A stretch of 44,803 nucleotides of DNA from Chitinispirillaceae bacterium (lineage in GTDB: Bacteria > Fibrobacterota > Chitinivibrionia > Chitinivibrionales > Chitinispirillaceae), in contig JAFGDP010000110.1 in NCBI GenBank assembly GCA_016932075.1, positions 1-44,803 of the forward strand. Reading direction: 5' to 3'. The translations under genes and the position numbers were made by a program. This document shows positions 30,718 to 39,004 of this stretch, one piece after another. Each line of letters begins with the position of its first letter. The first letter of the stretch is position 1. The notes under the pieces were generated by a model. It ran no database searches, was not told the origin of the DNA, and worked only from the letters and a program-made list of their open reading frames with translations.

Positions 30718-30751
30718 GGCCTCCCTTTCAGGATGAAGGGGAGGCCTTTTT
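30718..30751 (+). terminator. terminator of the Gld-type operon
   Basis: GGCCTCCC (30718-30725) pairs with GGGAGGCC (30739-30746), and TTTTT follows (30747-30751). It lies 26 bases after the DUF4340 stop codon. Confidence 0.9.
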
Positions 30752-30766
30752 AATTTAAGGAGCATG

Positions 30767-30860
30767 CACCACGAAGGACACGAAGACACACGAAGGGGAA
30801 AAAGAAAAAAAGGTTTTTTAAACTATCATTTCCTTCGTGACCTTCGTGCTCTTCGTGGTG
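30767..30860. repeat. long imperfect palindrome of CACGAAGG units (REP-like)
   Basis: The left arm (30767-30796) and right arm (30832-30860) are near-perfect reverse complements made of three CACGAAGG-like blocks each. CACCACGAAGG is on the outside and an A-rich 35-base centre lies between them. The arms could form a hairpin of about 29 bp. It looks like a dispersed non-coding repeat, since its reading frame is low-complexity and lacks a ribosome site. It borders the 21-bp array. Confidence 0.7.
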
Positions 30861-30903
30861 AATTTTTTTTCATCTTTGACATGGAGATGGCGGTTGATAG
30901 GTT

Positions 30904-31386
30904 AAATAACCGGGAAAATCCCTTTCCCGACCAGGGAGAAACGATCCTGACTAGGGAGGAAACCATTCCCGACCGGGTAGAAACCTTTCCCGGTCTGCCA
31001 GAAAGGACCCTAACCAGGGAAAATGAGGTCCTGACCGGGGAAACCCCCTTTCCCGGCCAGGGAGAAACTGTTCTGACTAGGGAGAAAACCTTTCCCGACA
31101 AGGAGAAACCGGATCTGACCGAGGAAAAAAGGGGTATGATCAGGGAAAAAATCATTCCCGACCAGGGAGAAGCAGGGAATGACCGAGGAGAAAGGGGGAA
31201 TTACCGGGGAAAAAAGGGCCATGACCGAGGAAAAAGGGGGCATGACCAAGGAAAAAACCGTTCCCGACCAGGGAGAAAACTGATCTGACCGGGGAGAAAC
31301 GGGGTATGACCAAGGAAAAAAGGGCCATGACCGGGGAAAAAGGGAGTATGACCGGGGAAAAAATCATTTCCGATCCGGTCAGGAAG
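30904..31386. repeat. degenerate 21-bp tandem repeat array (about 22-23 units)
   Basis: About 22-23 units of 20-23 bases, mostly 21, fill this stretch. The common core is GACC(A/G)GGGA(A/G)AAA. One class of unit begins TTCCCGACCAGGGAGAAA; another begins (G/C)NATGACCGGGGAAAAA. The A-runs recur about every 21 bases, roughly two helical turns. Units of 20 and 22 bases break the seven-codon period, so a frame encoding heptads drifts (ILTREET-like units become GHDRGKR-like units). This points to a non-coding array rather than a gene. The units differ too much for recent expansion. Confidence 0.85.
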
Positions 31387-31574
31387 GCTTTTTCCAGCGT
31401 AAGTACTTTTGGATCAGTGTGAGACGTTTCAGGCGGCGAGGAGCAAATATCAAAAGGAGGAGACGTATATCTTGCTGTAATTAGGAAAAAGTGGTCTTTG
31501 CCGCGGCGGCAATCATTTCTGACCGGATGATTATGCATTTGTGTCATGGCCGTCCCGGCCATGCACGTTCAAAA
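31387..31574. other. intergenic tail after the repeat array, with one perfect hairpin
   Basis: Between the array and the HAD gene no gene is visible. An isolated AAGGAGGA-like site lies near 31456, but its following frame ends at once. CATGGCC (31545-31551) and GGCCATG (31557-31563) form a perfect seven-base stem 12 bases beyond the HAD stop codon. It lacks a T-run in either direction. Confidence 0.5.
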
Positions 31575-37243: not shown

Positions 37244-39004
37244 GTGTGGCAATTATATAATTGGCATATCGGGCGCACCTTTTCAAAGGGGGCTATTATC
37301 AACTTCCGTACTCGTACATCCGGCATTTTTGAAATTGTCGAACCTCTGCTCGAAGGTGATGAAGTATTCGATTCCAACGTGCTGAAACAGAATGTTGAAT
37401 CAGTAATCGCTTCCGGCAAGCGCAATGTGTGTATCGATCTGTCGCAGCTCGATTACCTCTACTCCGATGCGATCAACGCCCTTATCGTCATCAATCGCAG
37501 AATGCTTGATGTCATGGGCCGTCTCTCATTGCTTTCGCCGCAGCCTGCGGTCATGGAAATACTGAAAAAATCGGGCATGCATAACATCTTGAAGATTTTT
37601 ATAAATGAGGCCGAACTGCTGCGTACGTCAGAGGAGCTTTCCGGTATGGCGACAGCCGGCCCCGTGTCTGCGGAGCCCGCCCGCCCCGCGTCAGAATTCG
37701 ATCAGCTCCGGGATGAGATAGGTTCGGCTTTTGATGCTCCCTCATCGGTTACCCAAATGCCGCCCCCGCCCCGTCCTCAACCTGCGGTACCGGTTCAGGA
37801 TTTTTTTACCCAGCCGCCGGCCCCGCCAGTTCAGCAGCGTCCTGCGGCGTTCGTGCCGCCGGCACAGCCCCAGTTTACGCCTCCGCCACCACCCGCAGGG
37901 CCTGCGCCGCGGTATGCGCCACCACCGGTCCGGCCGTTTGAGGCCAAGCCTGCGGCCAGGGCATATACGCCACCACCGCCACCAAAACCGGCACCACTGA
38001 GCACCGGCACAGAAACACGTCGGATGCCGCAGGTCCAAGAGCCTCCGATGGGGCGGCCACCGCAACCACCGGTTGCTGTGGAAGAGGATCTGGATCAGTT
38101 TGAGGCAACTCTTGAAAAGAAAGCCCCTGCAATCGGCAGGGCGAAGCGCGACCGTTTCGATGAAGATTTTGACGATATTCCAAAGAAAAAATCACTGGTG
38201 CCGGCACTTGTTCTCCTGGTAGTGCTCGTCGTGCTGGCCGGCGGCGGGTTCTTCGGATATATCACCTTTTTCCAGAAAAAAGCGGGCACGGCAAAAACGC
38301 CGGTTTCTGCTCAACAGACCCCCCAGGAAAAGGTCGTTCCGCAATTGCCCGTTGAAGCCGCTCAGCCGGAGAAACCGGCAGAAGAGCCGGCAGTAAAAGA
38401 GACACCCAAGCCTCAGCCTTCAGCTGCGCAGAGAGTTGCAGAAGCGGAAAGAGCGGCAGCGGCCCAAAAAGCGGCTGCTGTGGTCGCCGCCCAAAGAGAA
38501 GCAGCGGCTCAAAAAGCGGCTGCTGCGGCTGCTAAAAGAGAAGCGGCCAAAAAAGCGGCGGCCAGAAGAGCGGCAGCGGCTAAAAAAGCGGCTGCTGCAA
38601 AAAAGGCGGCAGCAGTGGCTGCTGCTAAGGCAAGGGCCGCTGAAGAAGAAAAGCAGGAAGTAAAAAAGACGCCGCCTTCGAAAATCGAAGTTATAGAAGA
38701 AGAGGAGGAAGAACCACCGGAAAAGGTTGCTACACGGTCTTCAAAAAAAGAAGCGAAACCGGAACCCGAGGAAGAACAACCGGCTGGCGGAGGCGGTGAA
38801 GCGGCGTCCGTGTTTATCGCATCAATACCTCCTGTCGCAGACATCTATATGGATGGGAAGCTGGTCGGGAAGACCAATATCTCCGAGATAAAGGTCACCG
38901 CAGGGACGCATACGCTTCGTTTTGTAAAGGGTGACAAGGAAGTAACCAAGAAACAGACCTTTCAACCGGGGAAAAACCCCTCAATGATGGTCAGGATTCA
39001 ATAG
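37244..39004 (+). CDS. STAS domain - membrane helix - PEGA domain fusion protein
   Basis: This protein of up to 586 residues joins several parts. An N-terminal STAS domain (about residues 20-125, with NVCIDLSQLDYLYSDAINAL) resembles anti-sigma factor antagonists. A proline-rich linker follows (about 150-285). One membrane helix (LVPALVLLVVLVVLAGGGFF, about 318-340) comes next, then a TolA-like Ala/Lys-rich stretch (about 390-465), and a C-terminal PEGA domain (VFIASIPPVADIYMDGKLVG, from about 521). The STAS part would be cytoplasmic and the PEGA part extracytoplasmic. The start is unclear: GTG at 37244 is five bases from the tRNA end and has no ribosome site. A perfect AAAGGGGG at 37285-37292 stands just before ATT 37295 and ATC 37298. 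A terminator follows at 39062-39098. Confidence 0.8.
   Translation: MWQLYNWHIGRTFSKGAIINFRTRTSGIFEIVEPLLEGDEVFDSNVLKQNVESVIASGKRNVCIDLSQLDYLYSDAINALIVINRRMLDVMGRLSLLSPQPAVMEILKKSGMHNILKIFINEAELLRTSEELSGMATAGPVSAEPARPASEFDQLRDEIGSAFDAPSSVTQMPPPPRPQPAVPVQDFFTQPPAPPVQQRPAAFVPPAQPQFTPPPPPAGPAPRYAPPPVRPFEAKPAARAYTPPPPPKPAPLSTGTETRRMPQVQEPPMGRPPQPPVAVEEDLDQFEATLEKKAPAIGRAKRDRFDEDFDDIPKKKSLVPALVLLVVLVVLAGGGFFGYITFFQKKAGTAKTPVSAQQTPQEKVVPQLPVEAAQPEKPAEEPAVKETPKPQPSAAQRVAEAERAAAAQKAAAVVAAQREAAAQKAAAAAAKREAAKKAAARRAAAAKKAAAAKKAAAVAAAKARAAEEEKQEVKKTPPSKIEVIEEEEEEPPEKVATRSSKKEAKPEPEEEQPAGGGGEAASVFIASIPPVADIYMDGKLVGKTNISEIKVTAGTHTLRFVKGDKEVTKKQTFQPGKNPSMMVRIQ

Follow-up and report, generated by a model that had tools for sequence, protein, structure and literature searches.

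A degenerate tandem array of 21-bp units between convergent genes in a Chitinispirillaceae bacterium

An array in a tail-to-tail gap

The window analyzed here is a stretch of 44,803 nucleotides from a Chitinispirillaceae bacterium (assembly GCA_016932075.1, contig JAFGDP010000110.1, positions 1 to 44,803 of the forward strand). It carries an operon whose products belong to the Pfam families ABC_tran, ABC2 membrane, ABC_transp_aux and DUF4340, followed, as the initial annotation had described, by a gene-free gap of about 0.9 kb. This gap measures 882 bp from the end of the DUF4340 gene (30692) to the end of a HAD hydrolase gene (31575), and since the latter lies on the opposite strand, the arrangement is tail-to-tail. 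At 30908-31370 of the forward strand the gap contains 22 degenerate units of 20-22 bp with the core GACC(A/G)GGGA(A/G)AAA, in line with the 22-23 units first counted. Unit cores run from 30908 to 31350, and the 21 spacings between them are 21 bp in twelve cases, 22 bp in five and 20 bp in four, with a mean of 21.05 bp. The array is real: its identity at lag 21 is 0.55, the highest lag-21 signal among 480-bp pieces of the window, compared with 0.314 ± 0.013 (maximum 0.359) for the best lag between 15 and 30 in 500 dinucleotide shuffles.

The units differ from one another at 8.3 of 21 bases on average. They fall into three recurring classes, as had been proposed, according to the bases that precede the core: CCC in seven of the 22 units, xCT in six and xAT in nine, the degenerate first unit being counted in the xAT class. 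Spacing to the preceding unit tracks class (21-22 bp for CCC, 20-21 bp for xCT and 21 bp for xAT), as does core base 10, which is G in 6 of 7 CCC units and A in 8 of 9 xAT units. The alternation of 20- and 22-bp spacings goes with unit class and cancels; an argument that these cancelling spacings form a lattice kept by selection was dropped on that account.

Tandem Repeats Finder (TRF), a check suggested by the initial annotation, returned period 21 plus higher-order periods of 63 and 106. The 63-bp repeat occupies the first half of the array (30912-31099, forward strand), where the pieces 30912-30973 and 31038-31099, 126 bp apart, are 87% alike. The 106-bp repeat occupies the second half (31116-31373, forward strand) in 2.4 copies with 83% matches; its period equals five units plus one base, and its copies differ at 20 of 106 positions. 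Such 63- and 106-bp copies are the expected remains of several rounds of local duplication with later decay.

Several smaller features surround the array. An inverted unit-like stretch at its right edge (31375-31395, reverse strand) is 81% complementary to 31018-31038, and a lone unit-like stretch lies at 31511-31528 on the forward strand. The latter forms with 31373-31390 an 18-nt inverted repeat (83%), so that unit-like ends enclose about 120 bp within 31373-31528; no dispersed copy of this structure was detected, the only hit being one 22-bp match in one of 167 Fibrobacterota genomes. On the other side of the array and separate from it is a palindromic repeat (30764-30863) with 22-nt arms of the CACGAAGG type that are 86% complementary. 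Parts of this palindrome match 4 of the 167 Fibrobacterota genomes, including four matches inside 3.3 kb of a single contig of genome G028, and against Rfam it gave four weak plant- or animal-microRNA-type families, all below their gathering scores. A terminator-like stem of 13 pairs with a T run follows the DUF4340 gene (30718-30746, forward strand); the region holds 3 terminator-like sites compared with 3.2 in shuffles. An imperfect tandem repeat of the GCGGCGGCCAAAAAA type with periods of 15, 18 and 33 was observed elsewhere in the window, at 38525-38613 within the frame 37244-39004.

Occurrence of the unit in relatives

The GldG-like protein of the window is 44-65% identical (best segment) to 17 loci of metagenome-assembled genomes (MAGs) titled Fibrobacter, Fibrobacteres, Fibrobacteria, Chitinivibrionales or Chitinispirillales, and 25% identical to one Opitutales locus. 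Using the window array as a blastn query, we detected it in a single genome, both among the 17 genomes behind these loci and among 40 genomes of the class. This genome, which we call G016, is a Chitinivibrionales MAG (isolate PL23a_bin.29, record JANQEN010000102.1). When a G016 array served as the query, matches within E 0.05 came from 19 of 167 Fibrobacterota genomes, and from 17 of 167 with a 42-position profile built from 24 two-unit pieces; besides G016, each gave one short match, with best E values of 0.0024 (blastn) and 0.0013 (profile). TRF found no array of the 21-bp unit in the 35 loci retrieved on account of these weak matches, among them one from Verrucomicrobiota; an additional strict-core check on these loci had low sensitivity, as it picked up just 3 pairs in the window itself.

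Arrays of the window unit thus occur in one of 167 Fibrobacterota genomes, G016, at four loci. The initial annotation had held that absence from all close relatives would count against a binding or bending role, and near-absence is what we found. Seven genomes that are nearer to the window by their GldG-like protein (52-65% identity, compared with 50% for G016) lack the array, although MAG incompleteness weakens every absence reported here. One of the seven, G001, gave a single profile match with E 0.047; in another, G008, the contig nearest to the window has a G+C content of 0.53 and the sampled set 0.37, and this bin may be mixed. The array family was not found at the limits used in 72,556 plasmid and 50,697 phage records, and the best two candidates per genome from 387 Verrucomicrobiota genomes yielded one single 32-bp match. 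In the accessible parts of the literature we came across no account of this array or of any 21-bp array from Fibrobacterota.

The four G016 loci differ in size and setting. Two lie near contig ends, a near-perfect array of 8.6 copies (C25) and one of 6.2 copies (C164). A third, of 12.3 copies with 93% matches (C153), has neighboring genes in the same direction, and the fourth (C176) consists of a few units between head-to-head genes, so that neighbor orientation varies among these loci and the tail-to-tail gap of the window. The G016 arrays carry subfamily-specific units. Since the window unit at 30971 differs from a G016 unit at only 1 of 21 bases, compared with 8.3 of 21 on average within the window, either the unit classes predate the separation of the two sets of arrays or a piece moved between lineages.

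Other arrays and dispersed elements in G016

G016 also contains arrays of unrelated sequence with a similar period. In 425 kb of this genome, not picked for arrays, five arrays reach 2.5 copies or more, and 4 of the 5, each of a different sequence, have periods of 20-23, compared with 2 of 27 in 859 kb from 19 other genomes (p 0.002). This comparison has small numbers and a copy cut chosen post hoc; arrays that were copied as dispersed elements are not fully independent, and the 859-kb set includes loci fetched for other reasons, such as L203 for a palindrome match. When all arrays in the 425-kb sample are counted, 6 of 14 have period 21 or 23. The near-perfect 21-bp arrays in this genome show that such arrays expand.

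One unrelated dispersed element is present in four copies (L048 3034-3300, L050 4002-4263, L217 and L218) and was found in one of 40 genomes of the class. It contains nine TTGTATACAA-like palindromic cores with spacings of 23 (seven) and 24 (one), and between two copies compared the cores differ at 4 of 90 positions and the flanks at 21 of 105 (p 0.001). A degenerate 21-bp array, array B, occurs at L045 341-885 and L055 14538-15073, which match at 88% over 547 bp and keep the same unit order; this element holds a palindromic module also seen beside the arrays at C164 and C153. The four-copy element and array B both have the appearance of dispersed non-coding elements that carry rows of sites. 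In the neighborhoods read as frames, judged by eye rather than by family scan, no G016 array had a transposase next to it.

Other repeats and mobile genes were observed along the way. The sequence L045 1-149, beside array A at C25, had been considered as a transposase end and was set aside as a dispersed MITE-like repeat without a Pfam family; it was found at five places (L045 1-149 and L157-L160), and the predicted protein P0003 elsewhere reads its sequence. At L132 736-4419, G016 has ParB-like, IstA-like and IstB genes in a row, together with a frame bearing a weak DnaG-type zinc-ribbon match below the cut-off. In genome G002 a 21-bp unit repeated four times (L113 3828-3905) adjoins genes that by eye resemble an integrase and a small mobile element.

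Minisatellite, binding sites or bend

We favor, at a probability of about 0.55, the interpretation that the array is a non-coding intergenic 21-bp minisatellite, a member of a dispersed and patchy family that grew by local duplication and is now decaying. Relic minisatellite was one of the options offered by the initial annotation, and it fits best with the 63- and 106-bp duplications, the patchy occurrence, the dispersed G016 loci and the near-perfect arrays among them. The units are tandem and head-to-tail with internal higher-order duplications, and coding constraint is absent. Growth by local duplication, visible in the higher-order copies, may have been driven by slippage or unequal exchange; a carrier would have spread the family between loci or genomes, and the array would be neutral at present. 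Bacterial intergenic minisatellites of the VNTR type are non-coding, have short tandem units and higher-order copies, and are patchy in occurrence, all of which holds for this family. Unlike them, the window array is strongly degenerate and has distinct classes of unit that recur, and the family is also present in a genome whose neighboring gene is only 50% identical. BIME/REP arrays are dispersed intergenic repeats of alternating palindromes. The window array resembles them as a dispersed intergenic repeat, here in a tail-to-tail gap, but its units are direct and tandem and neighbor orientation differs between loci.

Conservation within the units complicates the minisatellite reading. Among the 22 window and 29 G016 units compared, the core shows fewer differences per site than the flank between window units (0.27 and 0.60), between G016 units (0.16 and 0.43) and between window and G016 units (0.32 and 0.67), as binding sites would show. 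The 106-bp copies alone point the same way, with differences at 8 of 65 core and 12 of 41 flank positions (p 0.04), but significance is lost when the copy-by-copy comparisons within the window are pooled (29 of 140 core and 24 of 88 flank positions, p 0.26). Plain slippage also predicts no preference for periods of 20-23 such as that seen in G016.

The main rival, which we consider possible but clearly less probable, is therefore a phased array of 21-bp protein-binding sites on one helix face, bound cooperatively in the manner of iterons with replication initiators or of repeated end sites with IstA/TnsB/MuA-type transposases. The window copy would then be a relic of such an element, either solo or non-autonomous. 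This alternative ranks first among the others because the mean spacing equals two helical turns and because core conservation and the apparent G016 preference for two-turn arrays fit it; the conserved cores of the unrelated four-copy element, about 23 bp apart, and the kept unit order of array B are also in its favor. A binding array was among the options of the initial annotation. Between homologous copies, better conservation of cores than of flanks is clear only in the unrelated four-copy element of G016, and the pooled window test does not separate the two.

Two kinds of known system serve for comparison. Iteron arrays of replication origins have direct units of about 21 bp spaced at two turns, as the window array does. 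Unlike them, it has 22 units and ordinary chromosomal gene neighbors, its family occupies several G016 loci, and the ten translated frames of window 23.9-37.0 kb contain no initiator family. According to the accessible part of a study of IS21 (PMC10122671), the ends of this element carry at least two direct repeats, which in the case examined there lie 23 bp apart. The likeness of the window array to IS21/Tn7/Mu-type ends lies in direct repeats about two turns apart with variable parts between kept parts, as far as that source describes them, but the units of the array far outnumber the two per end given there. No transposase lies beside family arrays where the neighborhood was read, and the same ten frames contain neither a transposase nor istA or istB.

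IS21 ends had come up as a lead from G016 contig C292, where two TTGAAAAGTGACCCAC copies that resemble array B lie 24 bp apart after the 3' end of an istB gene. They were kept as a rival only, since istB loci in the class have about two repeats each. At 22 such loci, TRF on flanks of up to 1.5 kb, which leaves the far ends partly unseen, found 17-25-bp repeats of at most about 2-2.5 copies and none long. G016 has two IstB matches only at E 1e-20, neither on a contig with an array of this family.

A broader and rather improbable extension is that some Chitinivibrionia carry genome-wide dispersed non-coding arrays of unrelated units that share two-turn spacing (21-23 bp) because one kind of protein, for example a transposase-derived or filament-forming binder, makes or phases them; the window array would be a worn member.

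The initial annotation had also proposed that A-runs in the array add up to strong intrinsic curvature, and the array might in that case be a curved element that sets a bend, such as a plectoneme tip between convergent genes. Bends were computed with Bolshoy-type wedge values in a single model. By this measure no other part of the window is predicted to bend as much over 105 or 210 bp (195 and 342 degrees for the array, with window medians of 44 and 63), and at both lengths the array surpasses 97-98% of arrays built from composition-shuffled 21-mers with 30% mutation. Its twelve A- or T-runs of at least four bases are in phase at 10.5 bp (R 0.78, compared with about 0.29 by chance), altering the spacing by +1 to +5 or -1 to -3 bases lowers the predicted bend, and column permutation attains the real value in 1.7% of cases. 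However, at 105 bp the top value among 200 dinucleotide shuffles (204 degrees) is above that of the array, although none is at 210 bp; over 420 bp the window maximum of 589 degrees lies above the array maximum of 539; and 37% of dinucleotide-shuffled consensus 21-mers, perfectly repeated, bend as much as the consensus. Among the homologous G016 arrays, mean bends per 105 bp are 39 (C25), 58 (C164) and 125 degrees (C153) in a genome with a median of 47.5 and a 99th centile of 123, so that two of the three tested are unbent and bending is not what the family keeps. Predicted curvature is high for the window array, and curvature as its function is unlikely.

The array is not a gene, and a gene for a heptad-repeat peptide was rejected as very improbable. 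A spurious frame of 174 codons (30764-31288, forward strand) does read the array as heptads up to an internal TGA, and the G016 arrays can also be read as heptads. This frame stays open because the units have no stops in it and the 20/22 alternation cancels, but it begins in the palindromic repeat, and the 106-bp duplication shifts the reading frame and places its copies in different frames. Substitutions are spread evenly over the three codon positions, at 3/2/3 for the copies 126 bp apart and 4/6/7 for the 63-bp copies, without synonymous bias. The Pfam scan of this frame returned no family, and a search of 5.8 billion proteins returned only itself among 48 candidates. One reverse-frame G016 query matched a 151-residue predicted protein, from a contig of 1,728 bases, that reads like a member of this DNA family, and this shows a further array, not a gene. 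The initial annotation was right in its conclusion against a heptad-encoding gene, although the unit drift on which it relied cancels between 20- and 22-base steps; the frame-shifting duplication and the flat codon-position pattern are stronger arguments. A structured RNA or CRISPR-like array is just as improbable, with tandem organization alone in its favor and, against it, folding z-scores of -0.81 and -1.74 for the two strands, the lack of any Rfam match within the array and 21-bp units without unique spacers.

The minisatellite family remains the safest account of the array, with protein-binding origin as its less probable alternative. If the array is only a decaying minisatellite, it adds one more repeat family for a little-studied phylum and warns that an array of 21-bp units may be mistaken for a heptad gene. 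Should a protein hold the two-turn spacing, G016 with its unrelated 21-23-bp arrays would offer a natural series of phased sites for protein binding, and these arrays would suggest a kind of non-autonomous mobile DNA not described before.
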